Positions 17,841 to 57,494 of a stretch of DNA of 64,000 nt are shown here, one piece after another. The translations under genes were made by a program, and so were the position numbers. The DNA comes from Calonectria ilicicola (Eukaryota; Ascomycota; Sordariomycetes; Hypocreales; Nectriaceae): the NCBI GenBank assembly GCA_020809705.1, contig CP085832.1:3720001-3784000 (forward strand), in the 5' to 3' direction. Position 1 is the stretch's first letter. Each line of letters opens with the position of its first letter. The notes below the pieces were generated by a model. That model was not told the DNA's origin, did no database searches, and saw only the letters and a list, made by a program, of their open reading frames with translations.

Positions 17841-18038
17841 TTACGGCTTTCTTGATTTCCTCCCGGTGCAGTAACCACATCGATGCCTGGGGAGCCAGTC
17901 CGTGAGCGTCTTCGGGGTCTTGCGTTTACAGGGTAACCCAGCCTGGCAAGCCTCGAAACACCATTTGACACTTTCTTCGCTTGTAAGGAACCACTGGCAA
18001 TGCTCGCAGAAGATGTTCGTGGTATATCTCCAGCACAT
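17841..18038 (-). CDS. small Cys-patterned protein, array member 1
   Basis: A 65-residue intronless protein. Cysteines at 2, 11, 14, 27, 37, 54 and 57 match the spacing of the array exactly; an extra Cys lies at 31. It keeps the local features C-x2-A-or-similar after Cys27 (CFEAC) and CGYC at the end. The tail after the last pair is short and basic (TGRKSRKP), unlike the acidic tails of several sisters. There is no signal peptide or membrane segment. A TATA-like box (AAATATATAT, 18171-18180) lies about 135 bp upstream on the minus strand. Function is unknown; the two C-x2-C knuckles suggest metal binding. Confidence 0.72.
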   Translation of the reverse strand: MCWRYTTNIFCEHCQWFLTSEESVKWCFEACQAGLPCKRKTPKTLTDWLPRHRCGYCTGRKSRKP

Positions 18039-18286
18039 TGTTGTAAAGCTGTGAATTTGTTGTGCTGGAAGAAAAGAAAGTTGTTGTGATTGGACTGTTT
18101 AGAAGTCGATGGGTTCTGGTTCAGGTCTGCGTTGCAATTAGGAAAATTAAACAAGTGGGAGTATATGGGAATATATATTTAGGTGAACTATGAAGATTTG
18201 ATTCTAAGAATAGTGGTGTAGAATAAGGGGAAAATGATGGATGATTCAGAGCAGGAAAACGGGATGGACGGTTCACAGAATATGAC

Positions 18287-18502
18287 TTACTTGTCAGGCT
18301 CGGCATCTCGAATGGCCTGACGCTTCCTTTCACATGCCGGACATTCTTCATTCTTGATTTCATCCTCCAGCCTCTCAAATTTGAGAACGACACACATCTT
18401 CTTGTTTGCGATTGCTGGAGGACACCAGTTAGGGCGCTGTTGCTTGAAGAGATATGTATCGCAGGCCTCGCAGTGGAACTTGAGTTGGAAGACGGTGCAC
18501 AT
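18287..18502 (-). CDS. small Cys-patterned protein, array member 2
   Basis: 71 residues, cysteines at 2, 11, 14, 27, 37, 54 and 57, the canonical spacing with no extra Cys. The C-terminal 14 residues after CPAC are charged (ERKRQAIRDAEPDK). A TATA box (TATAAAAT on the minus strand, 18671-18678) is about 170 bp upstream. The stop codon overlaps a perfect GTAAGT donor; a 164-nt intron to a CAG at 18127 would replace the stop and add a PEPEPIDF tail. That acceptor lies in the promoter of member 1, so I keep the unspliced form. No known domain; function unknown. Confidence 0.75.
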   Translation of the reverse strand: MCTVFQLKFHCEACDTYLFKQQRPNWCPPAIANKKMCVVLKFERLEDEIKNEECPACERKRQAIRDAEPDK

Positions 18503-18747
18503 TGTATTATTATTCCCCCCCCCCCTCTTGATATTTAGTTAGATCTGATATGACTTAAAACTTCTTCTTTTGATCGGTGGAAGGTTGTAAAATCGGATTG
18601 GAGTACGATGCAAGTTTGATGGAGGAATTGTTTGCGGGGATGTGAGATGGCTGGGGGAGCACAAAATGGTATTTTATACGGGAGACAACAATTCTATTCA
18701 CTACATCGACTCTGAATTACCCTATTATCATGAAAGCCTTTAATCAG

Positions 18748-18981
18748 CTACATGGTAGGATTGTATGGTGGCGGCGCCTCACCCCAGCCATTCTGCTCCT
18801 CCTCTCCTTCTGTGCAGTTACATTCGGAGGCATCAACATGCTCTATCCTCGTCTCTGACTGGATGCGTTCGCAAGCTGTACGGTAATACAACACCTGGAA
18901 ACAAACTTCGCGGTGGGTATCTGACACGAAAACCATGCGGCAGATCTGGCAGTTGAACGATCTGATGACTTGAATGCACAT
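18748..18981 (-). CDS. small Cys-patterned protein, array member 3, with PPxY tail
   Basis: 77 residues. Cysteines at 2, 11, 14, 27, 37 and 54 are canonical, but the last pair is C-x-C (54, 56) instead of C-x2-C. The 20-residue tail is acidic and ends in APPPYNPTM, which contains a PPxY motif; in fungi such motifs bind the WW domains of Rsp5-type ubiquitin ligases and their adaptors (known biology; its use here is inference). A TATA box (ATATAAAG on the minus strand, 19063-19070) is only about 82 bp upstream. No signal peptide. The gene lies about 245 bp from member 2 in the same orientation. Confidence 0.75.
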   Translation of the reverse strand: MCIQVIRSFNCQICRMVFVSDTHREVCFQVLYYRTACERIQSETRIEHVDASECNCTEGEEEQNGWGEAPPPYNPTM

Positions 18982-19346
18982 TTTTGCTATCGTTGGTGAT
19001 TGTAGTTGTTTGTTTATTTGTTTGTTGCTGTTTGGTATACAGAGGAGCCGGAATTTGAGGTGCTTTATATGGAGTACATATACTGTTTTCGAAATGAGAA
19101 TAAATCATCAGTGGGGGGCGGCCTGCAGACACATGTTCACCGCCCCAGTGTTTGTTCATTGACTTGTTCGTCAATCATCCAGACATTTTTATTGACTGCC
19201 CATGAGAACAATACCATTAAATCCACCCATTAAGAAAAAGAGTGAACCGGTTGATTACAAAGCGCTCCAACTCATTCACTCATTGCTCATTCATTTCGTC
19301 GTATACAATTTCCCTACTTTCTTTCACGATAAGCGTTGAATGGCCC

Positions 19347-19544
19347 CTAGATACCCAACCAAGCCCCATCGCAGCAGACGTGACAGGCATCACTCCCCAC
19401 CAGGCTAGATCTGATGACAAACTTCATCTTGTCGCAGTTTTTGCTGACTTTCTTTGCCGCCGTGCACTGTTCGACGAATTTGCCGAAGCCAGCCAGGGCG
19501 CCGCAGGCGTCGCACCGCAAACGCACCTTCACGTGAGTGCACAT
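19347..19544 (-). CDS. small Cys-patterned protein, array member 4
   Basis: 65 residues from the Met-Cys start at 19544; an upstream in-frame ATG at 19736 would add a low-complexity N-terminus not shared by the sisters, so I reject it. Cysteines at 2, 11, 14, 27, 37, 54, 57 plus an extra at 58 (CHVCC). It has CTAAKK after Cys27, the C-x2-A feature. A strong TATA box (TTTTATAAAAA, 19744-19754) is about 200 bp upstream, the longest distance in the array. Positively charged middle (KKVSKN). Function unknown. Confidence 0.74.
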   Translation of the reverse strand: MCTHVKVRLRCDACGALAGFGKFVEQCTAAKKVSKNCDKMKFVIRSSLVGSDACHVCCDGAWLGI

Positions 19545-19947
19545 GCCCTGCTTGCTTTGTTTTTCCTTGTGTATTTTTGTTCTGAAAAACAGAAAACAAA
19601 AGGCGGGAAATAGAACCTGAAAAAAAAATAAAAATAAAAATTGCTGGGATAGAATAAACACGACACGATATACACATGCCGCTAGGGGCGGGGGGATGTT
19701 GGATGTGGCATTATGGAGGACTTTCCATGAACCCAAGGCTTAGTTTTATAAAAAGCAGACAGTAGGGGTGATAATTAATCACGGAGAGGCATTGCCGATG
19801 GCGCACACGAATGTAAACAAGTGTTGGTTGTGAGTTGGAGTAGGTTTATGTATTACAGCTACCACAAATGTTCTTCAACGGCAAGTAACTCTCTCCTCCC
19901 GTAACAACTGCGAGAAACCAAGAAAGAAAAGGGAATATGGCTTTAGT

Positions 19948-20139
19948 TCAGGAAGAGTCGGAGCATGCAGCGCATTCAGAAGCATTGCATTCTTCATTCC
20001 TTGTGACGAGATAGAGGCGCTCGCAATTGTTCCCCGTGCCTAAGCGGATGGCTGTGGTGCAAAGCTCTTCGAATCTGACATGGCCCAGAGTCCGTTTGCA
20101 CTGCTTGCAGATATATCTTAACTTGACGTCATAGCACAT
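19948..20139 (-). CDS. small Cys-patterned protein, array member 5
   Basis: 63 residues, the shortest member, with almost no tail after CAAC. Cysteines at 2, 11, 14, 27, 39, 51, 56 and 59: the Cys27-Cys39 gap is 11 instead of 9 residues, and Cys51 is extra. The 16-residue gap before the last pair is kept. CTTA after Cys27 keeps the C-x2-A feature, and the SEC before the last pair is shared with members 3 and 9. A clear TATATATAG box (20267-20275 region) is about 130 bp upstream. Confidence 0.74.
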   Translation of the reverse strand: MCYDVKLRYICKQCKRTLGHVRFEELCTTAIRLGTGNNCERLYLVTRNEECNASECAACSDSS

Positions 20140-21276
20140 TTTGATATGAGAGTGACTGGTGTTTTTCGGAGAATCGGCAGGAAATTCGCTAGAGAAGGGA
20201 AAGGAGGTGTTGTGGAATTGATTTTGTGTGTGTTTGGCTGTCTGACCTCAATGGCTGGGGATGGGCATATATATAGACCTTACTATTTTAGTCACCATCT
20301 GGAAACAGACTAGATACTCCAGGGCTCATTTTCATATCGAAATTTTCCTTTGAACTTGCATTTTTCGTTTTGAGACCATTCATCATAGAATCGACATGGA
20401 CTGGCTGCTGCTCCCTCCCAAATCCCCAGATCGAAGCAGTTTACCCAATCGATCAACATGTCAAAATACTTTGAAAGACTCAAAATACCGGCTTTGGATC
20501 ACTGCTTTTGCGTCACTCAACCCCCCACATTTCTTTACCACTCAGGTTTGCTGGGTCTTCCCCGTCCTTGGCCTCGTGCGCTCACGACAGCTGCTGGTGC
20601 GCAGGATACCTTCCTATTTCAGGCAGGTAAATAATAAACAATATCCCTATTTGGAGTTTCACGAGTCCCCGAGCTTCGTGAGATGGCGCACTGCTCAGAG
20701 TGGACAGTGATGAGGAAGGGGGGAAGCACCGCACTGCAAGTTTTGCGGGTCAGGCGTACTTTGTGTTTTGGTGACCATCTTTTTTGGGTGGCGCACAGAA
20801 AGATAGAGAGGAAAATTAATTTCGCAGGTAATTGGTTTTTGGGAAATCAGGGATTTGGTGCTGGAATGGGTTCTTCTGGGGCACTCTAGGGTTAACTGAA
20901 GCTAGAGCTGGAACGCCACCAAGTATAGGCAGATGAACCAACTTGGAGAACGATTATGATGAATAACCAATGAAATCCGTACTAAATATTGCGTCACAAT
21001 GCGGAGAATGTTTACACAAAGTCACGCCAAAGCAATCACCTGTGCACTGAATTTGTGCGCGGTGTGTCCGATCGCCAGCGACTGTCGGCTAGACATGTCC
21101 TAGATTCGGGCTCCGGCAGAATACCTGGTGCTGTGACTTGGTTCTTCAGCATGTGAAGACTCCGAGTTGGACAGCATTCAAACAGAGTGAACACGATAAG
21201 CAGCTAGATGTTGGGCTTCGATATCATTATCCATTGAAGCATGCTATTGACGAAAGACTGGATCTATTTACACCCA
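20140..21276. other. gap inside the Cys-rich array
   Basis: 1.1 kb between members 5 and 6. I found no further Met-Cys frame with the array's spacing, and no other gene; a decayed member could be missed by eye. Confidence 0.45.
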
Positions 21277-21480
21277 TCACCCACTCTTATAATAAAGAAG
21301 CTCTTTGCACCACATACATCCCTCCGGGCTCACGTAAGTTTTTATGTGTTTGTCTTCCAATATTAAGCACCAGAGTCCATCTTGCTCTGCTGCATGGCAC
21401 ATGGAGGAATAGGGCTCGGTCTCCTCCACTTTGAAGTGACACAGAAGGCAATGAGAGGATTCGCGAACTTGTTCGCACAT
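21277..21480 (-). CDS. small Cys-patterned protein, array member 6
   Basis: 67 residues, cysteines at 2, 11, 14, 28, 38, 55 and 58. The gap between the first C-x2-C and the next Cys is 13 instead of 12; all later spacings are canonical. CHAA after Cys28 keeps C-x2-A. The middle carries several acidic residues (KVEETE). The TATA candidate (TATAAG on the minus strand, 21632-21637) is weaker than in other members, about 150 bp upstream. No known domain, no signal peptide. Confidence 0.72.
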   Translation of the reverse strand: MCEQVRESSHCLLCHFKVEETEPYSSMCHAAEQDGLWCLILEDKHIKTYVSPEGCMWCKELLYYKSG

Positions 21481-21692
21481 CTTGATGACGGAATATTGTT
21501 AGTGGCTTAGATGGTGTAAATAAAACGCTCCGAGATGTCGGTTATAGAAGTCTGAGGTCAACAAAGTAATAGTTTATGGGCGTTCTCAACTAAAAATGGA
21601 AGACCGGGAGGGGAAACCTGAGGCACAAGGTCTTATAGTTGAGAAGACTACCTGATTCACAATGGATTCAATGTCAATTCATCAATAATTTA

Positions 21693-21908
21693 CTATCTTC
21701 TCTCTTCCTCGCTAATATATGTTTCCTCGCTCTCCCGGCACTCATCACAGTTCTCCCAACCCGTCTCTTCATGATCAACCAACAGGTCGTAATCCCAGCA
21801 GACAATATTGTTTCTATCAGCGTCCGGGCACACATAAAAATCGTACCGTTCGCAGACAAGATTGCCACACTCCTCGCAGGTGATTTTTCTCTCGACCATC
21901 TCACACAT
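21693..21908 (-). CDS. small Cys-patterned protein, array member 7
   Basis: 71 residues with cysteines at 2, 11, 14, 19 (extra), 27, 37, 54 and 57. The protein is strongly acidic, including a tail of mostly Glu (RESEETYISEEERR), the opposite of member 1. It lies 213 bp from member 6. A TATAAATAG box on the minus strand (22063-22071) is about 155 bp upstream. An alternative overlapping frame on the same strand starts at 21982 but lacks the Cys pattern. Function unknown. Confidence 0.74.
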   Translation of the reverse strand: MCEMVERKITCEECGNLVCERYDFYVCPDADRNNIVCWDYDLLVDHEETGWENCDECRESEETYISEEERR

Positions 21909-22169
21909 TTCTTCGTTCTTAGCAAAAATAAGAGTTTTGTTTGCTGTAGATGGACCAGTTTATTGTAGTGGTTTAATCGCAAGTTTAAAACTCGTCATGT
22001 TTTTGTTGGCCAGATTTCGGGAGCTGGGAGAGTCGAGCAGCAAACACGCCTAGGTCTTGGAACTATTTATATCGCTTGCGAATCATTCACAGACCGTGGT
22101 TTAGCATTAGAAAAAAAGGGCTTTGCCCAAATCACATCGTATTCATATTAAGCTGGGGTGATTCCCATT

Positions 22170-22376
22170 CTACCTTGCATAAGCTTTATCAATGTCCTGT
22201 TCAATGCAGCACCAGCACTCCTCCTTCTCCTTGAATACAGTATTGTGATCCTCATTTTTGATCTCGCACTCCTTATCATACCGAAAAGCAGTTTCACACT
22301 TATTGATGTGCGCTTCAATGTCGAGAAGAGTGTAGCATCCGATGCAGACGGTAAATTTCAAGAATTCTGTGCACAT
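22170..22376 (-). CDS. small Cys-patterned protein, array member 8
   Basis: 68 residues, cysteines at 2, 11, 14, 27, 37, 54, 57 plus 56 (CWCC). CETA after Cys27 keeps C-x2-A. The Cys37-Cys54 segment is acidic and lysine-rich (NEDHNTVFKEKEE). The promoter is the best defined of the array: on the minus strand TATAAAG (22521-22527) about 145 bp upstream, a CCAATC box just beyond (22533-22538) and a second TATATATAG (22547-22556). Function unknown. Confidence 0.75.
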   Translation of the reverse strand: MCTEFLKFTVCIGCYTLLDIEAHINKCETAFRYDKECEIKNEDHNTVFKEKEECWCCIEQDIDKAYAR

Positions 22377-24024
22377 GGTCTTTGGCTTTTTGTATAGTAG
22401 ATGGCGCGAATGGTAGAACTTTTTTTTTTCAAGGTAATTGGTGGTTTTTTTTATTAATTAGGTGTGGGAGGCTTTTTTGGGCAAAAATGCCGTACTCCAA
22501 AACCATGCAGCGGATGGGTGCTTTATAGCTTCGATTGGCTGATTAACTATATATAGGTTGCACTCACTGTCTCAGTCATGGATCGCACTGCATGCTGTTA
22601 TTCTTCTCATATTCGCTATTTATCCAGCACAGGCCCTATAATGGCCTCTGTCAATTGGGTTTGTATGACAGTCGTGGAGCATGAGTCCACAGGGTTCCCG
22701 AGTCAAGCTGCATGTTGAAACGACTCTATGTCATGTTTGACCTTGATAAAGGCTCCACATGATCAACAATGCACAAATGTCTTGATGTGTGTGCAGCATT
22801 CGAATAGAGTAGATTTGACGGAGATCTCTGATAGACGCGCTTTTTAGTAGTTATTCTTTACTGGCTTGCGATGGTGTTTGCATTGCACACAGGCCATTCA
22901 AGGCAATTGCTGTCAACGCCAAAATAGCCAGAACCAGGCTCATCAAGCCCTTTCATTTTTACTGCCCTGATATGAGATCTGATATTCTGATAGCATACTG
23001 AATTTCTAATTTGTTACTTTATAATTTAATTCCTAACCTCCAATCCCGAGCATTGTAGGTAAGAAAGGGAACCGCTTGTAAAACTAGCCATTGGTAGACT
23101 TGGACCTGGCATAGAAATAGATAAAGATCACAAGATCGATAATCGCATTGAGCAGAGACCAGCGCACTGATGGATGATAATTTGGCCACAACGGACGAAC
23201 TGGGTGGCTAGAAATGCTCATTTTAATACATAATCGCAATTTAGTCTGGACCCTGGCATAAGCTTTGAGCCAAGTTCGTGCGGGCCGAAACATGATCACT
23301 CGGCATTTGCTGAGCACCGGGTTATCTCCATCATCCGCATTTAGAGCCTGTGTTGTCTGAGCGTTTCGACCAAGTGGTGGTATGGCTGCACCACAGCTAG
23401 CTATCGCAGCTTCACGGTGCATTGGGTTCTCTACGTGGCTAGTCACTCCAAAGCATGCAAACCACTTGCTATTAAAACAAAGCTTAGATAAAGATGAAGA
23501 TTGAATAGGTGATCCGTATCGATGTATCGCGGGACATGCTGGACAGAGCAGAATTGCCGTACTCCACTTTTGAGCCGCCGCACGCACACGATCAATTTAC
23601 CATCCAGTGTTTCATTAGGGAAATTGTCTGCTATATAGCGCTGTTCAAGGCCCGTGTCGCATACAAGTTGCCAATTTCATTGGCAGTTGCGAGGGCGTTT
23701 CTCATGCACCCTTAGCGCGAAGTAGGAGATGTTTCTCCGGCATCCTATCAATTACACAGGGAATTGCCTGAAATGGTATCACGCCCAGACACTCCGGACT
23801 GCCAAAAAGGGCATTTTTAGTTACTCATCCCGAATCTAATTATAATTTTGGTTTATTCTACTGCTGGTAAGAAAATGGCTTGCATTAGACAGCATTAGCT
23901 GGTAGGCCGAGCGTTGTCAATATCACCACTTGGACCGATCGCTGGCAAGAATCGTTTGGCACTCAAACTTCGGCGTTGCCTTTTCATTATTCATGGTATT
24001 TAATCTTTAATCCTCTAAAGCTCG
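22377..24024. other. second gap inside the Cys-rich array
   Basis: 1.65 kb between members 8 and 9, AT-rich. The only long frame (minus, 23084-23587, 167 codons) shows no domain or array pattern and is probably chance. No other gene seen. Confidence 0.45.
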
Positions 24025-24258
24025 TCATGAAGTTGCACACCTGTCGTGAACTCCGTCCGTCCCATTTTCTTTCTGCAAGCCTGGCCCGCAATTGGGACAC
24101 TCGCTCGGATCCAGGTTTTCTTTGCCCTTGATTTGTCTAAACGTACTGCAGGGGGAACCCCTAGCTTTCGCAGCTCTACAAGTAATATCTCTAGTGCGCT
24201 GCTTCGAGATGCAGCCGCAGTTAGTGCATGTAGGTTTGGCGTGCTCTATGGCGCACAT
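24025..24258 (-). CDS. small Cys-patterned protein, array member 9
   Basis: 77 residues from the Met-Cys start at 24258; an in-frame ATG 10 codons upstream (24288) is rejected because all sisters start Met-Cys. Cysteines at 2, 11, 14, 16 (extra), 27, 37, 54, 57 and 74 (extra). CRAA after Cys27 keeps C-x2-A. The protein is basic in its first half and has a longer Gly/Asp tail. A TTTATAAA box (24393-24400) is about 135 bp upstream. It is separated from member 8 by the largest gap, so it may be the oldest or an outlying copy (inference). Confidence 0.72.
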   Translation of the reverse strand: MCAIEHAKPTCTNCGCISKQRTRDITCRAAKARGSPCSTFRQIKGKENLDPSECPNCGPGLQKENGTDGVHDRCATS

Positions 24259-24981: not shown

Positions 24982-26316
24982 TTATTCCTTGATTCGCTTA
25001 GCCGGTCGGATCAGCGAATCATCTGGCAGCCCGCTTCGCTTCGTTCCTGGCAAGCTGCTCGTGCGAATATCATTGTCATCCTGGCTCACACGACGGTGTG
25101 GATACTCGTTTTTGCATCCTTCGAAACAATTGGTGCTAACACGGTCGCCGGTGCTGAAAAATGGTGACTGCAACGCCTGGGCAGCCGTCAGTCGCTTGGA
25201 CGGGTCGTACTCCAACAGTCCGGCGAGGAGCTTGTATCCTTCCGTGCCCAGGGACTGGAGAGGTCCATTGCCATTGGGTCCTCCTCCATGGGAAATGGTG
25301 GTATAGTACCATTTTTCAAGGTTAGAACTGGTTGGTGGATGCTGGGCACGGCCGCCCACATAATGACCGTGGTGATGGCCGTGATGGTGGTGGTGCGAGG
25401 CCATTGAGCTAGCGAGGGTATTGAGTTGGTTGTATTCGGGCATGGTGGGAAGTAATGGCCAGCGCTCCTTGGTGGGTAGACCCATGATTTCAACAATTTT
25501 TTGCATCTGGTTGCGTTGAAACGGCACCGTCTTCTTGCTATCCATTTTAGCCTCTTCACCTTTGAAGATGGGTCGCAAGGACAACAATTCTGCAAAGATG
25601 CAACCGATGGCCCACATGTCGATGGCTGGTGTGTAATGGAAGGATCCAAGAATCAGCTCGGGTGCACGATACCAAATAGTCACGACCACCTTATCGCCGC
25701 TGAAAAGGGAGTGCAGGGGTTTGTCGAATCGTCGGGCAAGACCAAGATCACCAATCTTAACCTCGCCAGCTGAGGTAACCATGATGTTGGCGGGTTTCAA
25801 GTCTCGGTGGAGGACCCAGTTGGTGTGGAGATACTGGCAGCCATTCAGAAGCTGGAACATGATACTCTTGACCGTGGCTGGCGGAATGGGGTGCCGAGGT
25901 TGCTGAGTATGGTGGTGAATAATCTGAAGTAAATCGTGCTCGGCAAACTCGAACACCATGTAGATGGCTTTATCCTCGAGCATGATTTCGCAGAGTCGAA
26001 TCACATTTCCGTGGCTGAGTTCGCTGCAGAGGCTCATCTCGCGAATGGCACTCTGGGAGATACCCGTGTAGCTGACCTGTTCACCTTCCTTGTCGGGCTT
26101 GAACTTTTTAATGGCAAATTCACCGACGGGCTTGCCATTGCGGCCAACTGCCTTGTAGACACGGCCATAGGTACCAGAGCTAATGAAACCAACGATGCGG
26201 TAGCGGTCGGTGATGCGAACCTTTGGTTGATAGCCAGGGTGGCGGTCATGATCTAGAGTTCGTTGTTGGTAAGCGTGAGCTGGGAAAGCAACTCCATGAC
26301 GAGGGCGGAGAGGCAT
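24982..26316 (-). CDS. ssn3: Mediator kinase SSN3 / CDK8
   Basis: A single 444-residue exon. Seen: Gly-rich loop SSGTYGRVYKA (about 47-56), VAIKK-type Lys70, the C-helix SQSAIRE (88-93), catalytic HRDLKPANIM (170-179), DLGLAR (190-195), the T-loop VTIWYRAPE and the C-terminal fungal SSN3 block TKRSGLPDDSL-type followed by PAKR. This is the cyclin-C-dependent kinase of the Mediator CDK8 module, nuclear, which phosphorylates the RNA polymerase II tail and transcription factors. Residues 308-318 form a His-rich insert (SHHHHHGHHHGH) in a loop that is variable between fungi. The start is the first ATG of the frame; a long GC-rich leader precedes it. The gene is complete. Confidence 0.95.
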   Translation of the reverse strand: MPLRPRHGVAFPAHAYQQRTLDHDRHPGYQPKVRITDRYRIVGFISSGTYGRVYKAVGRNGKPVGEFAIKKFKPDKEGEQVSYTGISQSAIREMSLCSELSHGNVIRLCEIMLEDKAIYMVFEFAEHDLLQIIHHHTQQPRHPIPPATVKSIMFQLLNGCQYLHTNWVLHRDLKPANIMVTSAGEVKIGDLGLARRFDKPLHSLFSGDKVVVTIWYRAPELILGSFHYTPAIDMWAIGCIFAELLSLRPIFKGEEAKMDSKKTVPFQRNQMQKIVEIMGLPTKERWPLLPTMPEYNQLNTLASSMASHHHHHGHHHGHYVGGRAQHPPTSSNLEKWYYTTISHGGGPNGNGPLQSLGTEGYKLLAGLLEYDPSKRLTAAQALQSPFFSTGDRVSTNCFEGCKNEYPHRRVSQDDNDIRTSSLPGTKRSGLPDDSLIRPAKRIKE

Positions 26317-43549: not shown

Positions 43550-44020
43550 GTTTGCCCACGGATAGGTGCCTCGCCAGCCGCCGCCGTCGTCATCTCCCGC
43601 TTCTAAATAGAGTCAAGACAATCCACAGTGGAACCCGTTGACAATGTTTGCCCACGGGTAAGGGCTTCGCTAAGCATCACAGCCGTCTTTCATTTCCAAA
43701 TAGAGATATAACAACTCACTGTGAAACCCAGTGCTTGTGTTTGCCCGCGGGTAAATGCCTCGCCAGTCATAGCTGTCAGTCCTAGAGTCTAAATAGGGAA
43801 GAGACAACTCACCTGTGAAACCCGTTGCCCGTGTTTGCCCGCGGGTAAGTGCCTCGCCAGTCATAGCCGTCAGTCCTAGAGTCTAAATAGGGAAGAGACA
43901 ACTCACCTGTGAAACCCATCGCCCGTGTTTGCCTCCGGTAGGCGTCTCGCCAGGTGTCGTAGTCATCTCCCGCTTCTAAACAGGGACGGGACGACTCATC
44001 TGTGAAACCAATCGCCAAGA
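43550..44020. repeat. five-copy minisatellite, unit about 94 bp
   Basis: Five tandem copies start at GTTTGCC/GTTTTGCC at 43550, 43646, 43739, 43833 and 43927 (periods 96, 93, 94, 94). Copies 3 and 4 are nearly identical; 1, 2 and 5 have diverged. Each has a CCCGCGGG-like palindrome near its start, a TAAATAG(GG) segment and an AACTCACCTGTGAAACCC end. On the minus strand the junction reads TTTCACAG then GTGAGT, but the copies are not all multiples of three, so no continuous repeat protein is encoded. Confidence 0.85.
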
Positions 44021-47000
44021 CTAGACATGTGAAGATCAGGCAGAAATCACAGTCATGTCCGAAACTTTGCATCCTCAAGGCTGGTCTCAAATGCCTATAA
44101 AGGAGCCAGAATTCCTCCCTCATCCCTCATCTCTTTTCCTCTCCAGTCAGTGACAACACAGGCAACAGAGCCTACTATATATATACCTACCATGGTATGC
44201 CCCCTCCCCCCGATTAAAATCCTCCAACGATCCCCCAACACACTCACTCGCAGATCCTCGAAAGACTCGACATATGACACATTGAGCAGCCCTCTTGAGC
44301 TGTGAGGTGACTCTCTTCAGAGTTTGGTATGTTTTCTCGGCCTCAACTAAGACACGGTTTGTTATTGATTGCCACTGATGGAGCCACAGGCAACCACCCA
44401 ACCACGAACCTATGGGTTTTCGGATGTCCCATTGCTTTCAATAGTGGCTCTTCATCATTTCCGCCACAGTTTCCGATGTAAGACCTGCCAATACGCCCTG
44501 GACACTCCCCACCGCTCTTTCTCTTCACTCACCAACTTTGATAGGATGAAACTCTGAAATACGGACAGCTTTTAGAGGCATAGAAGTCAATGCAGATGTT
44601 TCCATGAGCTCTTTATTTTTCTAGAACTTGTCTTTGGCCTGAAGAGTTGCTCTGCATATTTCCTCCTAGAGACGGAAGAGTTTGCGTTATTTACACCACT
44701 TGAACAGAACCAGTCGTGTTCCGGAAGAGAGCAAGACTAATACCGAAGCCTATCCCGACGCTTTAAGCCGGTTCGAATTGGTTGGTACTTACCTAGTCAA
44801 CACACTTCTCCACATGTGTTAACAATTTGTAGTATTTGGGGCCTTTTTCGTTGCGAGGTCAGCCAAGGTGTTTTATCAGGCTCTCGATGAGCAACCGGGC
44901 TTACCTTCCGAGGATCGCCTTTTTCCTTTTGCAGTCGTGCAAAGCAGCCAAGTTATTCGTGATGTAACACGACCAGAAGAGTTTCCAGAGCCACCATGGT
45001 ACACTAGAAATCTAGCATTACCTCTCACCCAGAAGATTCGTGGTCTTCAGTCACTCACACATATTCCTAGATGTGCGATTCTTTGCTCAAACGCACTAAA
45101 AGAGGCACTAGAAAAGTACTTCATCGCCACTCACGACCAATATTTCGGCTTGTCTGTAGCTGCAGGAGTTTTATCTCGCCATAATTTCACCAGCTCACAT
45201 GCTAATCACAGAAGCCTAAAGAATGCATGCATCAGCATTGAGGTGAAATGGCACCACTGCCAGGGCACGAGTTTGATCAATCGCCATACCCAGAGCAACC
45301 AGAACTTGTACTGCAACCCTAAGCATCACAACTTGGTGAGTGTGGCCCCTCCATCCGCCTGCTGTCTCTAACTTTCCTTAGCCTAGAAATCATCTTTTTC
45401 GGTTCCTTTGCAAAGCAAGATTCCGATTGAACCCATTGGGCTTACTACAAGAAACTAGGCCCGTTGGTCTAATTGGCAACACGAAAGCTCAAGAAAATTT
45501 ACGATTACTGCGAGACATGTTCGCATGGACGAGTCTAATACCGATTTGAACCTCGATTGTTCCGTCTCGAAGACTTTTCTGGAAAGACAATCTCCGACCC
45601 AAACTGTGCACGTGAACCAACTTCAACACACTTCACGGCAGCGAAGTCAAGACGAGTCAATAATTGTTCGTGGAGTGTGCGATAGCCAAAAAAACGGACT
45701 CTTCCTACCTGAAAACTAGGTCTGAGTTCTGGAGTACGCCAATCAATACTGTTCAAACAGAGTCGACTCCTTTGTTTCTTGGGATTGGAATGTCTTTTAC
45801 AACTTGAGCACAGAGCTCTGCGACACATACTCCTGATTCTTCCGGAGTCTATATACCCCCCGGATTTTCCTTCTTCTGTCTTCTTCAAAGACGAGACATG
45901 ACCTTCTTGCTATTCGGGCTGGGGGAACGAGAGGCATTTAACCAGTAAACCTTTTGAACAAGATACCAGCCCAAGGTTTCACCCTTCGCACTCAGGAAGA
46001 CTGCGCTACTCAGTTGAGACCAAGAGCGAAATCACTTCTTGACCTTTACCATCGAGATTCAACAAGAGAAACACCATGAGTGCCGGCTAAGTTGTCCACA
46101 TTATTTCCAAGCCAAGTTGGAGTCACAGAGAGGCGTGCCAGTCACGCGCATTGAACTTTTGAGGCGGTCGGATAATACTAGTCTTGTTCGAAAAAAATCA
46201 ATGTCGGTCAGCTGGTGGTCTTACTACATGCTCATGCTCACGATATTGATTTATGGGTGAAAAACTAATCTAGTCGAGGCTACAATACTACCGCATGTCA
46301 AGGCGGCGCTGGAGGGATTGACTGGGCCCTTCTGCATTCTCGCCTGTCGCGCATTTCGGTTCCGACTCTGTTGAACGGAAAACCACTAAATCCTTGGCAA
46401 TGCCCTCAACTTGACAAGGCTCCTTGGCATGGCTGGAAGGATGAACTTGCTTTGGATTTCTTTTGGAACCTTTCCTGAAAATATCTTTGTCAGAAATCAT
46501 TTCCGAGTCGGCAAAATTCGACAAGTTATCCAGATGGATTTGGACACCCAAAGACATTCAGCGGTTTGATGGTGTTCGTGCCATTCACCGCGCTACCTCT
46601 ATGTAATGTTACAAGAGTGGCAAAGCTTAGCCCTCAGAGGCTTGCAGGAGCCAGTGTTGCAGTGGATCCTGCCTCCCTAGACATGCGCAGCATACGATTG
46701 TTCTTCCCTTTAGGCATCTAGTAGATGAGATCCTTCAGCCTTATCGAAATGATCTAGGTGGCCTCTCATGGATAAATTAGCCTACTGGGTCTTGAACCCC
46801 GACGATCGCTTATTGCAAGGTTGCATCAAATTAGCCAAGGGCCGATGACGCTGGGTGGTGATCATTGATCGAAGGTGTGCCTCCACAATCGACAATTCAA
46901 CTCGAAGATATCAGATCGAATTCAATCCACGAGAAGATCAATTCGACTCCGAATGCCGGCAAATGGATTTGGCAGAGTGGAACCTCACCCCAGTATTTGG

Positions 47001-48269
47001 GTTCAAGGGACAATTCCCCAACCTCATCTTCAGAGAGTCACTTAATTGGCGGGGAAGTGCTGTACATCAACCTATGGCCTGCCGACCAATTCTTCATCAG
47101 AATTCCCATCCCTCAATTCAGCCAAGTTTTCAAAGAAGTCGACGAGGCTCTATATACCGAACTCGCTACATGGAATGAACCCGCTGCGCTGACTATCGAT
47201 TGAGCATCTCAGAATATTTCATCAGCTACGAAACAGCACCGACACTAAGCGCCCCCGGGAGTTGGAGGATATTGCCCCGAAAGTCGGCATGGCTCTCATA
47301 CCAGAGTTTTCCCGCTACCGTCCCAAGAATGAGAAGACCTAGTTATGGAAACAGACGCATAAAAAAAACTAGCAAAAGAGAGACACCTCAGACGATATAC
47401 AAAGCAATCAATGCGATGCAGAGAGAGCGTACCGACGAAGTCCTGTATGAACAGAGGTCCCAATTTTGGGGATCTCAACTTGGCTGACAATATCAACGAC
47501 TTTCCCATGCTGTCTGTGGAGGAACTTACACTAGCGTTCTACCGCATGGATGAGTACATTTTGGCACTCAGAAATGATTTCTGCTGCTGTAGCCGGTCGG
47601 GTGCTTGGCCCTGGTTGCTTAAATATGCAGCTGATCGTTCACAGGTTGGCATATCTCGCACCGAACCCAACATTTCCACATTTTTCTCGCAAACATCAGA
47701 ACCCATTTTTCTTGTTACCGACCTGTCGCTTCGACAATCGATTTTGCCCCGGCTTAGATATACAATCAACAGGATTTAGGGCCTAGTAGAAGGTCATTGA
47801 TTTGGATACATGTCATTCCCTTTCCTCTCATCTCGGCTTTTTCGCAGGGAATCGAGAGCCACAAAGTCTGTGAGATTGGCAAAAGCCATTCATATCCACA
47901 AAGGAAAACCCGCAAACAGATTGACTTGCTTGGGCTATAACGCAGCAGACTTGGAGTTTGGCTCAGCTAGCCTAAGCAAATAGAGAGAAGATATCTCAGC
48001 CGAGCTAACCGATGAGAGCATGTCACCTGGACTTCATCCATCGCGATGTATGCCGCCTGAAGAAATAGTGGATCTGACATTCTGAAGATAGAAATATCAT
48101 GTAAGGGCGCCAGTAATAATCCTCCTGACATGGAAACAGGACATTGCCTGCTCTGGCCGGGGTTTCACGATGCTAGTCGTTAGAAACTTGGTTCGCTGTC
48201 CATCGACGATCACAACAAATTATTCATTAACCTTAAAACAAACTTTACCAACGAGTAATTTTATCCTGG
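44021..48269. other. gene-poor DNA with decayed coding fragments
   Basis: No intact gene is seen. On the plus strand there are isolated frames of 60-170 codons (44868-45371, 45525-45719, 46865-47203, 47200-47487, 47411-47779) broken by stops and frame shifts; they read like fragments of larger proteins but I cannot assign a family. A TATA-like CCTATAAAGG lies at 44092-44101 just after the minisatellite, followed by an ATG at 44191 that opens a frame of only 37 codons. Confidence 0.45.
46865..47780 (+). pseudogene. probable decayed coding remnant, family unknown
   Basis: Three overlapping plus-strand frames in different phases (46865-47203, 47200-47487, 47411-47779) read as a broken coding sequence about 1 kb upstream of the helicase remnants and in the same direction. 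Phrases such as VDEALYTELATWNEPAALTID look protein-like. It may be an upstream part of the same helicase pseudogene, but I see no helicase motif here. Confidence 0.3.
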
Positions 48270-48950
48270 CAGAATCGAAATTATGCCCAGAATCTTCGAG
48301 ACCTGAACCACTTGGTCAGTCGCGGATGTATTAGTCAAAAACGCCTTTACGAATCGCTGGTGCAGCCTCTATTGCCCGCCGAGGTCCTGGATCACACGAG
48401 ACAAGATTTTAGACAAATAGAACAAGCCCGGCAACAATCTCCAAGTCTTTGTAGGCAATATCAATACGATGTCGACCGGTATTAATCTGCATATGCAATG
48501 CTCCAAGGGTATATTTCTCAATTGGCATCTCAACTGCAAGCTCATGGCCCAAATCATTGGTAGGCTTGTATGCCGCCTTGGTCAGACTGAAAAGGTCTAT
48601 TTCCATCTGCTCAAGGTTAAGAATTCCTATCAAGAACCTTACCTAATCACTGGATGTTAACATTGGCCAACAGGGTACTGAGGGGATTGATATCACCCTT
48701 CAAAAGTCGCAAGGCCAGTGGACGGCATGTGCTGATGAGATGGAGACTATACTCTCCCTATTGGTTGATTCAGCCAAAAGACAAACAAGCAGCTTTTGTG
48801 TACACCATCGACGAGGCGGTCAGTGTTGAGGTAGATGATGCTCTTGTTGATCTTGTCCGGATAACACGAAGTGGGCTCATAAGCGACTCGAAAAGAGATG
48901 CAATTATGGCCACTTGTTATCGCCTAAGCCCTATCCACACTTTCTGATAA
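48270..48950 (+). pseudogene. SF1 helicase remnant, copy 1 (broken)
   Basis: Plus-strand pieces of the C-terminal RecA domain of an SF1 (Upf1/NFX1-like) helicase. 48285-48400 encodes NHLVSRGCI then SQKRLYESL; about 350 bp later 48790-48915 encodes VYTIDEAVSVEVDDALVDLV and RITRSGLISDSKRDAIMAT. The second piece matches helicase motif V (T-x-D-x-x-x-S-x-E-x-D). The two pieces are out of frame and separated, and about 21 bases present in copy 2 are missing after the Arg-Gly. No ATP-binding motif is visible nearby. Confidence 0.62.
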
Positions 48951-49014
48951 GACCAAGTCACCGGGCAGTTGCTGATAGGTCTACCGGTGTGCGTTTGGCA
49001 GTGCCTTTCCATCT

Positions 49015-49345
49015 GGGATTACGCACAGCACCTCCAAGATCAAAATCACCTAGTCAGACGCGGCAGCATCATGATCCTCACTGGCTATGCCAGCCAAAAG
49101 CGTCTCTACGAGTCACTACTATGGGACCTATCTCCCGCTGAGATCCCTGAAGGAACCGTCTGTGTGCGTACCATCGACGACGCGGTCAGCGCTGAGGTAG
49201 ACGTTGCGATCATCGTCTTTGTGTGAACGACAAGAATTGGATTCATGAACGACCCCAAGTGAGGTGCAGTCATGAACATCCGTGCCCGTGCTGTCAATAT
49301 TTACGTTGGCAATGCGGCCACGTTCGAGTCGAAGCCCAAGTCAAC
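49015..49345 (+). pseudogene. SF1 helicase remnant, copy 2 (two in-frame stops)
   Basis: A better preserved paralogue of the preceding remnant: HLVRRGSIMILTGYASQKRL, YESLLWDLSPAEIPEGTV, CVRTIDDAVSAEVDVAI, then IGFMNDPK and IRARAVNIYVGNAATFESK. These follow the order of SF1 helicase motifs IV-VI (motif VI arginines in RARA). It is interrupted by TGA codons at about 49224 and 49259, each where an Arg is expected from the family and from copy 1. Only this C-terminal part remains. Confidence 0.68.
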
Positions 49346-52300
49346 AGCATTTTACCTCCGGATGCTGTCCTCCGTCATGCCTGCTCCATGCCTCTCTCAG
49401 AGTGACTGGACGCTGATGCGGATCTCAGAGCGCCCAAATAACCGAAGCATGTTGTATTGAAATCACACACAGCAGAGGTGCTAGCGATTGAGACTGCAAC
49501 TGCGCCAGCGCCAGCCACCATCTGGTCAAGTGGTCGTGGGTTTGACCATAGAACTCAACCATGATTCTGGAGTCGCTCCGATAGAACTGTCTAGAAGAAA
49601 GACAGATGCGCGGGCATATTGGCGCATGCTTGTCAAACTTGGCCATGAATGGCTGGTCACGATGTGGAACCAGGCAGTAAAAGACTCCCAGCGTACCTCG
49701 CCCCAGTACCCTTCTACTTTGATTAGCTGGGGATACACATTCCTAACCCTAAGATCGGCCTCAAGCGATAAAGGAGCTTGTACTATCCTAATCTTGCCAA
49801 TTCAAGCGGAATTCACTGCTGAATCACTCTACATATATATATCAAAAAGATGCTTTTGCAATCATACGGTCGGGACGATGGGAATAATAGCTCCTCCGAG
49901 CTAATCGAAGGAATCAGCAAGTTAGTTTCTCGGCTTCCAGACTTTACGACTTGAAAGAAAGATCACCAATCTCAATTGGGCCAATCTTACAGAACACACT
50001 ATTTATTTGTCCAATGTGGAATTGGCATTTTCTCACTCCACGCGTACAAACAAGGCCGAATTGGCCGGGTCCTCCGCTTGGCTTTCAATAATTGTGAGCT
50101 ATCAACGCCATTAAGCTAAGAGCCCAATCCAGAAGCCTACAATGGCTTCAAACTAACCCACGGATCCAGCATTCCTGCCTCAACGGCTGCTTGGATAAAT
50201 AGTGGGACATAAATGATGAAGACTATAACGTACCTGAAAACAGTTTTACGAAAGCACCTTGACAACAGAAGTACAACATGCGATCCTGAACTGCACTTTT
50301 TATCAATAGTATCTGAAGAGTAGTGGTGTTTGTGCATCATCTCTGGAGCAGGAAACCAGAGAATCTACCAAGTTTTCTCGGTATTGCTCTTAGTCGATAA
50401 TCGAGTTAGCGATAATCTGGGAAAGTAGCATGACCGGAGGGATCTGTCGATCCGAACACAGTCTACATTTCGGTAAAATATCATAACTCAAACTCATGAC
50501 TAGCTCCTGTACTGTACTGGCGGATCACACAACAAATTTTTCGGCGACCATGCCAGTCCATCATTTTTCGCACCCTCGTTGATCGGGGCTGTGGGTGGGA
50601 GTTCTTCACCCGATAACTTCTCATAACTCAGCTGCTCAGCTCAGCTTCTTGAGACTCAGGAGACAAGCAAAGAATGGACTTTTCTCAAGCGCGAAGAATT
50701 CGAATGGAATCCCACACACGCACTCCGGTCCTTCTTTCCAACATGTCCAGAATCAATACAGCGACAAAGGGCAATGTGAGACATATCGTTGCCCCAATGG
50801 GACTCTTGCCTGTCAATGTAACTGCACCTGCAACATAGAGTCGGACATGGCAACAGCCAGGCACATCCCGCAAAGTCAGTCGACGATTCCAACCAGATGA
50901 TAAAGCTGAATGGACACACCATCTTCTGCAACGCCCACAAAGATCAAAAGAATCACTGGGGACATTTACTCCATTCCTTCAAATGACATCCAATATCTTG
51001 AGTTTCGAATCTTTAACCTTTTTATGACATCCGGACAAATGTTGGAGACCGTGGGATGAAGAAGGGAGGAGAACTTAAAATTGATTGGAACAAGAGCACT
51101 TTTGCCAGCCACTCTGGAACAAATGGATAATAAAGGAAATCACTGGGTCAATAGTCAAGCTAACACGACTACACAAGAAATGGAATTGCTTTTTTCGCGT
51201 CCGCAATAACCTCGGGTTACATGAGCGCTGGGTGGTCACTGATATCCATCCACCCCAACATTGTCACATTTCAGGGTGTGTTCACAAACGGGAATCGGAT
51301 GCCCGATTGCTTGAATCCTGAGAAATACTCCCCTAGTTCAAAAAATGCAGAATACCCAGGATGAAAGGACACGGGATTACCATGGCCTTGGCACCCTTTT
51401 TAGCAAACATCCGAGAACATGATCTCGGCCTGGGCACCATGGCTTCCATGCAGTTGAGAATTTCACTCCAGGACACTATCTGGTACTCGACGAGCTGTAG
51501 ACACAGGAAGCTTGACCGTGCACAGAGGGTTCAATCGGAGCTACGCAATGCTCGCCGTCTCGTGGTGACGATGAATAACCACCCGGATCATACACAATCC
51601 TGTACGTTGAACAGCGTACCTTGATTCGGGTCTCCCTTCAAATAATACTTCGGGATTGGAAATCATACCCAAGATGGTATCCCACCAATAAGGGCCCAGT
51701 GAAGCCCAATCATGCCGACATTTCATCATGGGTGGTTCTGGATGAATTGGTTCCGCCAAAACATTGTTTCTCACCTGTTTAGGCAATTACCCAGTGAAAA
51801 TGAATTGTATTCTCACAGCGAAGAACCCAAAACCATCTTCCTCAAAATCCACGCTTCTATTTCAACTAGATCTCTGGTCTTTCAAGAGGGACCATTCAGC
51901 TGACCCCAAACCTGAGCGAGAAATTTAGCGCACCACAGGAGGTAATCATATTGATCATCTTGAAGGCAGGTATCTCATTTTACCACGTCAAATAAACCGG
52001 GCTGCGCCGAAATATAATTTCGACATTCTATTATTTCTGAGGAAAAAGAAGCACAACGAGATGTGCTGCTCTCTTGAACACAAACCTCATGATTGTCGTC
52101 CCTGGCATTCAATAGAAGGAAGTGGCCAACAAACCCGCAAGTTCACGCCAGTTTCCCCCAAGTCACCATTTTACCTCATCCAAGGCTTGATTCCCGTCGG
52201 AAATCCGGAGCAGCCAGAACTTACCCGTCTCGTTCGTCGAATCTTGGATTCAAGTAGGCCCATTCCACTTTGATGTGCCACACCGGGACTGCTTCTTAAT

Positions 52301-53785
52301 GGTGCCAACTTGAACATTCCTGGTGCTCAATAAATTCCCATTGATACCCATGATCCAAGTATAGGCTATGAAATGGCATTGCGTTCGCTAATGCATTTTG
52401 GTCTTTATAGCAATGCTTTGGAAGGGATTACAGGAGAAAGATGGAGGCAGAACATGCTCAACATAGCATTCTCTCCCAAAAGCAAAAATATGAGTCATTT
52501 TTCGCACTTTAGACTATTCTCTTGACCTTTATCACCATGTCGTCACTTGATACTTTCAGCATGCTGCAGCGTGGCCAAATCAACAAACTGGACGTGGAGC
52601 GCCATGGCATCGCATGGCTTTGCCCCTCCCCATGAGAATAATGCTGCTTGCTTTCAATGAGAATGTGAGAACTGGGGAATTTGAGTCGGTTTAACGAATT
52701 AGCTACTCAACTCTACAGTATCCAGTATTTGATCCTACGAGTACGCTGCACTCGTATTCTCGGATGCTCTAACACAAAATACTTATACAAAATGGACATC
52801 CCGGAGGCACCCGGCAGTATGTGGCAGTTCCGGAAGCCGCAAGAAGACCAATCTGAACATGAGGCCCTATCAATCGCCTGGAAATTCTAGGGGATGACAA
52901 CATATATAAACAGAAAATCCGCCAAGAAACTCACAAGCAACCTCCAATCTCAAGGCAGAGTTCAAGCAGTCTAAACTTGGCCAAAGGGGTCAAAGGGCTC
53001 TTGTTGTGAGGGATCTTACCGATTCACTTAGCAATACCTCGTCTGGCCCCAACTAGAAAGCCACATACATCGCAGAGGCAAGACCGTCAAGAATGAAGAA
53101 GATCGCCTGAAGCTGCGGCCATTATGGCATTAGAGGGATATATATACAAATCGACAATTGACACCCGATACAGCTTTATTTTGAAGAATCCTGCACCCAA
53201 TGCGCTGCGGGCAGGCACGAAATGCCACACCTTAGAGAATGGTGATGGTCTCGTCAATCATCTACAGCAAAACTACGACACCCAGAATACTGGTGACAAG
53301 TGACGAGAAGTTTCAGAATTAACGGATGAAAAGTTCATCTGGTGACGTATAATATAATATTGATGTTGCCTCAGTTGCAATAGCATGGCTTCAACTCTGG
53401 GAAAGAGAAGCCAAAGAACTTGCACGACGGCGAAAATTTATCCTTTGCCTACCCACAGTCCTATTAAACAAATAAACGCTCGACGCAGCCACAGACCTTC
53501 CTACAGTTGGCAACGGTCCTGTCACGGCGTCTAGAAGGGCGAGGGTGAGGAGGAAGGAGAGATCGAAAGCGAACACAGAGCCGAAAGCCGACTGCCAACC
53601 CTCCCCCGCTCGGTTGGAATATTGTCAAAATCACCAACCTATTGATGAGAAATCCGAAACGAATATTATACAGTATAATTATCAGAAGACCCCCAACGCA
53701 ACCAGAACAAACTACGAGACAACGCAGTGCTGCTTGACCCAACGCTGCTGCCACGGATACGGGTAAGATTAGCCTATGGACATGA
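49346..53785. other. gene-poor DNA, decayed
   Basis: Some 4.4 kb with no supported gene. Short plus-strand frames (49488-49904, 50595-50900, 51361-51624) are broken and unassigned. TATATATA runs occur at 49831-49840 and 53140-53150. Confidence 0.45.
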
Positions 53786-54280
53786 GCGAAGACGAAATGT
53801 TCTAATCCGATGCTATGAAATCGAACTAAATCGTCCCTTCCTCGAGAACATGAACTTGAGCGAAGATGAAATGTCCTGATCCGACGCTATGAATTTGGAC
53901 TAAACCGTTTTTTTAAATACATAAACAGCAATCTCAGTGTTTGGGCAGAGAGAGCCCATGGACGTCAGCGAAGACGAAATGTTCTAGTCCGATGCTATGA
54001 ATCTGGACTAGATCATTTCATCTTCGCGAACAAGAAAGAACTTGAGCGAAGATAAGATATTTTGATCTGACACCGTTGATTTCTGCTATGCTATTCTTCA
54101 CAAACAGAAACCACAGTGCCTGGGCAGGATGAGCCTTTGGATGTTAGTGAAGACGAAATGTTCTAATCCGATACGATGAATTTGGACTGGATAGTTTCTT
54201 CTTTGTGAATAGGAACTTAAGCAAGGACGAGATGTTCTGATCCGACGCTATGAATTTGGACTATTTGTTCTTTGTGAACA
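53786..54280. repeat. higher-order minisatellite, unit about 180 bp
   Basis: The phrase GCGAAGACGAAATGTTCTAA, followed by a TCCGATGCTATGAATTTGGA-type segment, recurs at 53786, 53860, 53968, 54046, 54147 and 54221. The spacings alternate 74, 108, 78, 101, 74, so the array is three copies of a roughly 180-bp unit, each of two unequal halves. Second halves begin GAACTTGAGCGAAGA or variants; first halves follow a GCAG-GAGCCCATGGACGT-type spacer. In one plus-strand frame the core reads SEDEMF then stop. Confidence 0.8.
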
Positions 54281-57200
54281 AGAATTCGAGTACCACAATG
54301 GATAATTTGGTACAATCATCAATTTTTGAGGATTAATTTTCGAAACCCAGCCACTCAAATTGCCCCCTGCCGCCAGAATCTTGGTGAATTCGTCTGCTAT
54401 GAACAAGGGTCAACACTCTGGATATGCGCCAAGCTCATTCGGACTTCGACATGGTTAGAGCTATCACCTACACATTCCACCGTGCTGTGGACATTTATGA
54501 TGCAAGATTTTGGGCTTCCATAAGAAATTCCAAGAAATATGGGGGAGATATCCTCTTACGAGACTAAGATTCGTGACTGGGTGCCACACTCGCTCCATTT
54601 CGACCCTCACCAAGCGTGCTAATTGCCTTGGTTTCTATTGGGGCCCTTTTTCGTGCAAATTGTCCACTGTCGGATTTAATTGAAAGTAAAAGCTGAGCGC
54701 AAGCGTAAATAGCGCAGTCGCCAGGGACCGCCTAGTCTCACACCACGCGCCCCGAAATTTGTGGTGGCAAGGCATCGAATTTTATGGACAATCTCGCCAT
54801 CGTCAAGTCTAACCATCCCGCTAAAACAAACCGAAGCCAGAGAAGACTAATTCGAAAAAGACCCATGATCCGGAACCTAATGAAGAAACCCGCAATTCAA
54901 CCAATCTCGAGGAAGCCAGGTTCTCATCAGATGATTCTTTCGTCACATACACTATCAGCGTCACCTGTCCAGCTGAATTACTTAGTGACTTTTTTTTCCC
55001 CAGTTGCCATACAATGCCTGATGATCGCCGGGTTTCACACACTAGATTACCTGCTCGGAAAGTAGAGTCATAAAATACTGCCGGGAGATCTTTCCAAAGA
55101 GAGAGAGATTGATTGGATTGGAGAATAATAGGTGCTACAATAAGTGCGCTAAGAAGCAAATGAGGATATGGTATAAGCAGCGCTGTATCCTGGAGCTTTC
55201 AAATATCCCACAGAGATGTTAAGCTGGCACAGCATGTCAAAGAACAAACCTTACAGGTTTCTCCTAGCAGCTTTTGGAGATGTTAAATTGGCACGAAAGC
55301 CCAGAATGCACATCAAGACTTTATTCGATGTAGCCCCCGAGGAAATATACCGCCCTGAAGAAGAAACGAAAAAAAAAACCATGTTTGCCATATCGCGGCA
55401 GAATGCTTACCCGAAGGAAAAGCGCCCGGGCGGTTGAGAAAGTAAGGCGTCACACTTGAAGCTCGACTTTTTTCATCGCCCTGTTCAGCTGTTTGCAAAA
55501 GTCCAAGCGCAACCGAAGAAACAAATATGGCCTCTGTTATACGCACACAATTCCAAGAAGTTACGCCTCCAGCAGTGTGCCACCTTGGATCTCTTGAATT
55601 TTCCAAAGAACAAAAAAGTTTTAATGCTTTCCTCGACGACAGGATCTAGCACACCGTCTATCATTCAGACCATACGAGGGTTGGCCATACAAATCCCAAC
55701 CGCGCACACCTGAAGGAATTCTGAGAGCCAGCAGGAAAATTCATGGTGTCGAGGATGAAATATACAACATTCAAAATGTTGAAGCTATCCATTTTATGGG
55801 TAGCTATCATTCAAAATGCCGAAGAGTCAACCCGATTTGAAGGTCTAGATGATCATGGCGAGCTAATTCCAGGGCACCTGGCTGTGACTGGAATGAAATT
55901 TCGCGCATAGCCCAAAGTATCACACCCTATCCAAACCTCACTGTGTAGCGCTGTTTAAAAGCCCGGAAACATATTATTCAACACGAGCATGTTGTTCAAA
56001 GAAAATTGCGATCGGCTTAAAGGTGAGTTCTTGTCTTAACTCCATAAACAAGCCTCTCTTTGGGTTGTGTTATTGGTGCAGATTCCGTTAGAACAACGAC
56101 TGATTGATTTAAAATAGATGGTTTACCTGGCTTATTGAGACATTGGAAAATATTTACAGCCTATGTCCTGTGAGCAAAGTCGATGCTGTAATTCGACACC
56201 ACCAGCGACGAACTTCTATTCCTATTCGAGTCCCTGATGTTGATTTGAGTATCTCTCAGAAGCCAACAGATCGAGCAAATTTCTTTTATTTTTGATACAC
56301 GCAGTGCAAATCACTCTTTTTATTTCAACGATTTTATAGGCGGACTGCTAATGCTCTCGGGATGGCTACGCTTGTCGTTGCCCCACGCGAAAGGATTCGA
56401 GTGGCAAAGTCATAATGTGCAGGCAATTAGCCAAAGAGGATCTCAACCGTTCTGTCGTATGATTCTACGGTTTCTGTCGCGCAGAAATCACCGGGACAAT
56501 GAATTGTGGGAAACTGATTGATCTTTGGATTCTGCTGGTGGACTTCGGAGATGTGAAATTCGTCACAAGCAGCAAAACATATACCGATATTTCAGTCGAT
56601 TTACCTCCCGAACCACGAAAAGCATTGACCAGGAACAGGCGCAATGCCGCATGCTGACTTGGATCTCTTGAATCCGGCATAGAGACATCAAACCTGCAAA
56701 TGTGGGTTTCCAGGAAGCGTCTCTTATTCAACAAGCGCAAACGTTTAAGAGAACTGGAATCAACTTAAAGGTGATTTTTCCCCCAGAACCGCTAGTACGG
56801 GTTCTCTTTATATTGATCCCCCTGTTTGGGGTCTCTGTTGTGTACATGAAGCTAAGTTAGTCACAATAGATGGCTGGACGACCTCAAATCTATGGCTGGA
56901 GCTCACCGCACACGTCCACGGCCCGCTCAACAAAGCGTGATATCGATTTCTGCTCGCTGAATTCGGAAACGCCAAATACGGGTTAGGCAGAAAATTACAT
57001 ACAGAGGATCTGGATATCACCTCTGAAGGCTGAAGAAACATCAAAAAAGACCCTCCGATGGATGCTGATTTCGATAACGTATGCATGCCACCATGGAATA
57101 ACGACTTCTCCTTCAGTCACCTATAACATGAATTTGAAGAGCCGAAGTGGCAAGCTGGTCAGATTCTAACCGATTGGCAAAAATGGAAGGGTATGAAGCA

Positions 57201-57494
57201 TCCCACAGAAATTCTTGTCCAATGTGAGTGGGCAGCTGTGATTACCAATAGAGGTATTCTTGCCCGTCCAACAACTTCGAGAGCATTGCCCACATGGCCT
57301 CGTTCACAAACATTGTTGGTAAGTGTTGAACTCATCCATTAATGCATTACTATCTTTCCACACCAACTCCTTGCCACGCACTTCTAAGCATAATCTTATG
57401 CACTTGTGTATGGGATGATTGCTTAGTATCCCCTCGAATATGGACTTATTAAAGAACTGCATACGCCGATTTCCCAACAAGACGTCTTCCCGGG
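54281..57494. other. gene-poor DNA, decayed
   Basis: No intact gene. Plus-strand frames at 54784-55065 (Arg/Lys-rich), 55216-55437 and 55456-55713 are short and unassigned. Confidence 0.45.

Follow-up and report, generated by a model that had tools for sequence, protein, structure and literature searches.

Results

A nine-gene array with a fixed cysteine spacing

The window analysed here comprises the 64,000 nucleotides C8:3720001-3784000 of the Calonectria ilicicola assembly (69.9 Mb in 12 contigs). On its minus strand, at positions 17841-24258, lie nine uninterrupted open reading frames (ORFs) encoding 63-77 residues, which a sequence-only reading had described as an array of small proteins with one strict cysteine spacing. 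We can confirm this description: all nine ORFs match M-C-x8-C-x2-C-x(12,13)-C-x(9,11)-C-x16-C-x(1,2)-C, the spacing up to Cys37 is the same in seven of them, the 16-residue gap is present in every one, and members 3, 5 and 6 are the deviating ones. We further found that the array is only part of a family with members on at least three other contigs, which likely represents a structural scaffold diversified by duplication. Members 1, 2, 4, 7, 8 and 9 carry their cysteines at positions 2, 11, 14, 27, 37, 54 and 57, referred to as canonical spacing below. The array consists of the following genes:

Member 1, 17841..18038, minus strand: 65 residues, canonical spacing, extra Cys at 31
Member 2, 18287..18502, minus strand: 71 residues, canonical spacing; structure predicted, mean pLDDT (predicted local distance difference test) 87.7
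Member 3, 18748..18981, minus strand: 77 residues, last pair C-x1-C
Member 4, 19347..19544, minus strand: 65 residues, canonical spacing, extra Cys at 58
Member 5, 19948..20139, minus strand: 63 residues, x11 from Cys4 to Cys5, extra Cys at 51
Member 6, 21277..21480, minus strand: 67 residues, x13 from Cys3 to Cys4
Member 7, 21693..21908, minus strand: 71 residues, canonical spacing, extra Cys at 19; very acidic, net charge -15
Member 8, 22170..22376, minus strand: 68 residues, canonical spacing, extra Cys at 56
Member 9, 24025..24258, minus strand: 77 residues, canonical spacing, extra Cys at 16 and 74; structure predicted, mean pLDDT 73.7

Each array member thus contains 7-9 cysteines, that is 0-2 beyond the conserved seven, and net charges range from -15 to +7. 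Within the window, the pattern follows nine of 38 ATGTGY starts on the minus strand and none of 31 on the plus strand. By chance, it did not arise in any of 60 windows of 64 kb simulated with a first-order Markov model, and no match was obtained from 200,000 residue-shuffled members.

Codon usage and start context are consistent with real genes that may be expressed. All seven cysteine columns mix TGT and TGC codons, with just one TGT in three of the columns. The GC content of the coding sequence is 0.498, reaching 0.599 at third codon positions (GC3), and that of the intergenic sequence is 0.434; at 0.451, the array stretch as a whole is lower in GC than the window (0.505) and 200 kb of flanking sequence (0.493). 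In all 13 intact family members, including the dispersed ones introduced below, translation starts at the first in-frame ATG past the upstream stop, and all 13 have a purine at position -3 (A in 11) compared to 38 of the 60 other ATGTGY sites in the window (A in 21).

Dispersed family members

Genome searches with family proteins led to eight distinct places off the array, of which three hold an intact gene and one a decayed copy, while four were set aside. Another gene was found on reading one of these loci, so that intact members, 63-82 residues in length, number 13 on four contigs: the nine of the array and four on C1, C4 and C5. The family outside the array comprises:

C4:3328252, C4 member: 79 residues, exactly the array spacing; found with member 2 as query (E 3.4)
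C1:7150564, C1 member (C1a): 82 residues; found with member 7 as query (E 2.7)
C1:7151413, second C1 member (C1b): 74 residues, starting about 0.85 kb on from the first; found on reading the locus
C5:1472230, C5 member: 72 residues; found with the C4 protein as query (E 0.013)
C5:1159261-1159431, decayed copy: 313 kb away from the C5 member, with which it was found

Three of the four dispersed members first appeared at E-values of 0.013 to 3.4. Members 1, 3 and 8 as queries returned only themselves at E <= 10, and the majority of array members used as queries recovered no other array member; these queries did not include member 6, and member 5 was searched at a limit of E <= 0.001 only. Because single-protein genome searches are insensitive for this family, the 13 intact members are a lower bound. 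No further member turned up among the uninterrupted frames of the 100 kb flanking the window on each side, nor among those in an additional 13.5 kb next to the C1 and C4 members. The four places set aside (C5:5798930, C11:368374, C4:2719327 and C6:4489754) hold no Met-Cys frame with the signature, and the same was true of the three frames read at a weak match off the window that scored 11.4 bits with a profile hidden Markov model (HMM). C5:5798930, which reached 9.9 bits in the scan with the family HMM and was unlisted in the scan with the 13-member HMM, may be a degraded relic of the family.

Decay of copies is visible at two sites, clearly on C5 and probably in the array. The C5 relic shares 87.6% DNA identity over 234 bp with the intact gene at C5:1472230 and is, judged by this similarity, the product of a recent duplication and loss within one contig. 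The second site lies inside the array:

About 22697-22795, minus strand: probable decayed tenth copy, C-x8-C-x2-C start readable, stop codons inside

An in-frame Met-Cys start is absent there. This stretch is the top non-member of the window in the family HMM scan (11.2 bits, the next reaching 6.7), scores 13.2 bits with the 13-member HMM and is matched in tblastn by members 4 (E 0.007), 6 (E 1.3) and 2 (E 3.7). However, frames outside the window that lack the signature reach 10.9 and 11.4 bits, so that the score alone is not significant and the probable decayed copy is identified by its position and spacing in addition to the score.

The dispersed members also separate traits of the family from those of the array. 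Three of the four have a last long gap of 15 rather than 16 residues, which makes the 16-residue gap an array trait. Similarly, the alanine three residues past Cys4 (C-x2-A) that the sequence-only reading had singled out occurs in eight of the nine array members but in none of the four dispersed ones.

Sequence divergence

Outside Met1 and the cysteine columns, the 78 pairs of intact members share a mean identity of 10.5% and at most 22%. In BLASTP, the nearest relative of member 4 is member 5, with 32% identity and an E-value of about 1e-9. Other shared residues are few: V5 in 7/13, a hydrophobic residue at alignment column 18 in 12/13, and in 7/13 each a glycine three ahead of Cys5 and a glutamate ahead of Cys6. 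All 13 proteins were recognized in a leave-one-out test, with E-values between 7e-11 and 0.0098 at a database size set at 100,000, and an HMM built from the array only gave 29-31 bits for the C4, C5 and C1a members and 11 bits for C1b. Fully shuffled sequences (n=2000) scored at best 14.9 bits against this model, whereas shuffles that kept the cysteines in place (n=2000) reached a median of 14.0 and a maximum of 36.9 bits. Much, but probably not all, of the recognizable family signal therefore lies in the cysteines. Cysteine columns that stay fixed under TGT/TGC turnover, low identity elsewhere, decayed copies and one predicted core for two members (see below) all fit the earlier idea of a scaffold diversified by duplication.

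Predicted structure

AlphaFold models of members 2 and 9, two of the nine array proteins, have the same core, as the suggestion of a shared structure had implied. The predicted fold combines a beta sheet of three strands with a short helix, to which one of the two models adds a C-terminal helix. A Zn(Cys)4 site might be made up by the two cysteine pairs, and zinc binding by the family, the second part of the earlier proposal, is plausible. In a crude hydropathy test, none of the 13 intact members displayed a strongly hydrophobic N-terminus (best 10-residue mean within residues 1-35 between 0.43 and 1.82, highest for member 8), in agreement with the earlier statement that signal peptides are missing.

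Comparison with known families

None of the 13 proteins, nine from the array and four dispersed, reaches the cut-off of any Pfam model. A PDB sequence search with a nine-member profile returned four rows at E-values of 0.4-1.7, none of them significant. In the protein database, the nine-member alignment yielded 17 word-sharing candidates, none at E <= 1, the 13-member alignment 46 candidates, none at E <= 10, and the C5 member alone zero candidates; these are weak tests because at most 100 exact words were used and family members are about 10% identical. Pattern searches with the C5 member only gave 181 stretches in GTDB genomes and 15 in IMG/VR contigs, none of which was confirmed in these non-fungal collections. 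Among the papers listed in searches of the open-access PMC literature, none dealt with such a family. Within these collections, which were prokaryotic, viral or reached via exact words only, and within Pfam, PDB and open-access PMC, the family is well-defined and apparently without a name; to this extent, the earlier statement that no described family has this signature holds. Pezizomycotina do have anonymous hypothetical proteins that start with Met-Cys and end with a C-x2-C pair, for which we know of no family name. If they belong to the same family, it would be widespread yet unnamed.

Structures were compared by re-aligning the 445 and 476 PDB chains that Foldseek ranked highest. The match to the C-terminal Zn(Cys)4 dimerisation domain of Fur/PerR/Zur is too weak for a claim of kinship. 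Fur/PerR/Zur proteins are bacterial and possess an N-terminal winged-helix DNA-binding half, for which the 63-82 residues of the family, taken up by the cysteine domain, leave no room. The ribosome chains 9t4r_4, 8qcq_6 and 7unr_3 are presumably ribosomal protein bL31, which to our knowledge has no insertion bearing C27 and C37; membership in this family was rejected, as no Pfam cut-off was passed and no significant PDB sequence match obtained. Metallothioneins, with repeated C-x-C and a far higher cysteine content, were rejected as well: the array proteins have 7-9 cysteines per 63-77 residues and a single C-x-C in only three of nine (members 3, 8 and 9).

Among fungal proteins, the nearest functional analogy that we found is AVR-Pii, a ZiF effector of the rice blast fungus with 70 residues, one zinc in its C-terminal part and the zinc motif C-x2-C-x12-H-x-C, as described in PMC9618136. 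The same paper mentions AvrP-like zinc effectors, a group to be recognized by a shared zinc-chelating fold. The segment C11-x2-C14-x12-C27 of 12/13 members fits the start of the AVR-Pii motif. Unlike AVR-Pii, the family has cysteine instead of histidine at the fourth position, never a cysteine two residues later (0/13) and four further conserved cysteines; the complete motif occurs in none of the 13 members. ZiF effectors are secreted via an N-terminal signal peptide.

Discussion

On balance, we consider it probable that the array belongs to a family of zinc-stabilised mini-proteins that duplicates and decays at several loci and provides variable binding surfaces inside the cell. C11-x2-C14, in the turn between the first two strands, and C54-x2-C57, after the third, would together hold a single structural Zn(Cys)4. 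C2, C27 and C37 might come together at the opposite end of the sheet and form a second site with three cysteines, occupied either by zinc plus another ligand or by a disulphide and a free cysteine. If metal substitutes for a large hydrophobic core, most other residues would be free to change, and every duplicate would therefore display its own surface on a common scaffold. Since a signal peptide is not visible, action within the fungal cell is most likely. These proteins could bind a range of protein or nucleic-acid partners, gaining and losing specificities as copies are born and die.

All 13 intact members have a cysteine at residue 2 and no N-terminal extension, and such a fixed Cys2 is unusual for a merely structural ligand. 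The methionine preceding a cysteine is usually removed, leaving an exposed N-terminal cysteine, and N-terminal amines bind metal in TIMPs and nickel superoxide dismutase. In a variant with two metals, the N-terminal cysteine would bind a second zinc through both its thiolate and its alpha-amine. Seven cysteines and one amine make exactly eight ligands for two zincs, which would account for the odd number of cysteines as well as for Cys2. The scaffold would then be genetically expandable and its folding dependent on methionine removal. We regard this variant as doubtful. A search of open-access PMC listed nothing usable on N-terminal cysteine as a zinc ligand. The fixed Cys2 poses a question on the chemistry of N-terminal cysteines in fungi that can be tested.

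Small, cysteine-bearing proteins of a multigene family with little identity could also be expected of hypervariable, zinc-stabilised effectors that act in a host and leave the cell by unconventional export, without a signal peptide, and plant-pathogenic fungi do have zinc-fold effectors such as AVR-Pii (PMC9618136). We think this unlikely given the lack of hydrophobic N-termini in the crude test, the absence of the AVR-Pii motif, and the housekeeping nature of the nearest identified genes (an SSN3/CDK8-like kinase and the Tudor protein SGF29), although the frames at 13.2-17.8 kb lack an assignment. Nor do the cysteines favour redox or metal-buffering proteins, which would form disulphides or store metal loosely without holding a fold. 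Seven to nine of them in so few residues would suit this function, but the conserved number is odd, the spacing is fixed nearly to the residue, array members add two extra cysteines at most, the predicted fold of member 2 is fairly confident, and metallothioneins are far richer in cysteine; we deem such proteins improbable.

Regulators of transcription or RNA, that is zinc-ribbon mini-proteins on nucleic acid, would account for the ribbon-like layout with two cysteine pairs and for the sub-threshold likeness of single members to the Pfam models zf-U1, Fin and Spt4. However, these likenesses stay below the cut-off, and the span of net charges is ill-suited to one shared nucleic-acid surface, so that we give this explanation little credence. 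That the ORFs are chance frames or relics without a product is the least credible alternative: although identity between members is very low and decayed copies exist, the empty simulated windows, synonymous turnover at conserved cysteines, GC3 and start-context signals, and intact members on further contigs all speak for genes.

If the reading as intracellular zinc-stabilised mini-proteins is correct, this fungus, and perhaps others, would possess hypervariable zinc mini-proteins of a class that has no name and escapes sequence searches. Such a class would be a natural example of a scaffold held by metal whose surface sequence is almost free to vary, useful for studying how binding specificity evolves, and would bear on how many 'orphan' fungal genes are members of diverged families.

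Neighbourhood of the array

To the right of the array, an SSN3/CDK8-like kinase is encoded at 24985-26316 on the minus strand (best PDB match SSN3, E 3e-118); it contains the histidine-rich stretch HHHHHGHHHGH. The nearest nameable gene on the left is SGF29 with its Tudor domain at 11.8-13.2 kb, and no Pfam match was obtained for two frames in the interval up to the array or for another at 14.7 kb. Positions 44000-58000 of the window form a long stretch of 44-48% GC with few long ORFs, and all five ORFs tested that begin there were without a Pfam match. Further on, an AAA ATPase (60429-61511, minus strand), whose AAA_lid_13 domain, like the SSN3-like kinase, points to a fungal genome, lies close to a dienelactone-hydrolase-like ORF at 59552-60091.

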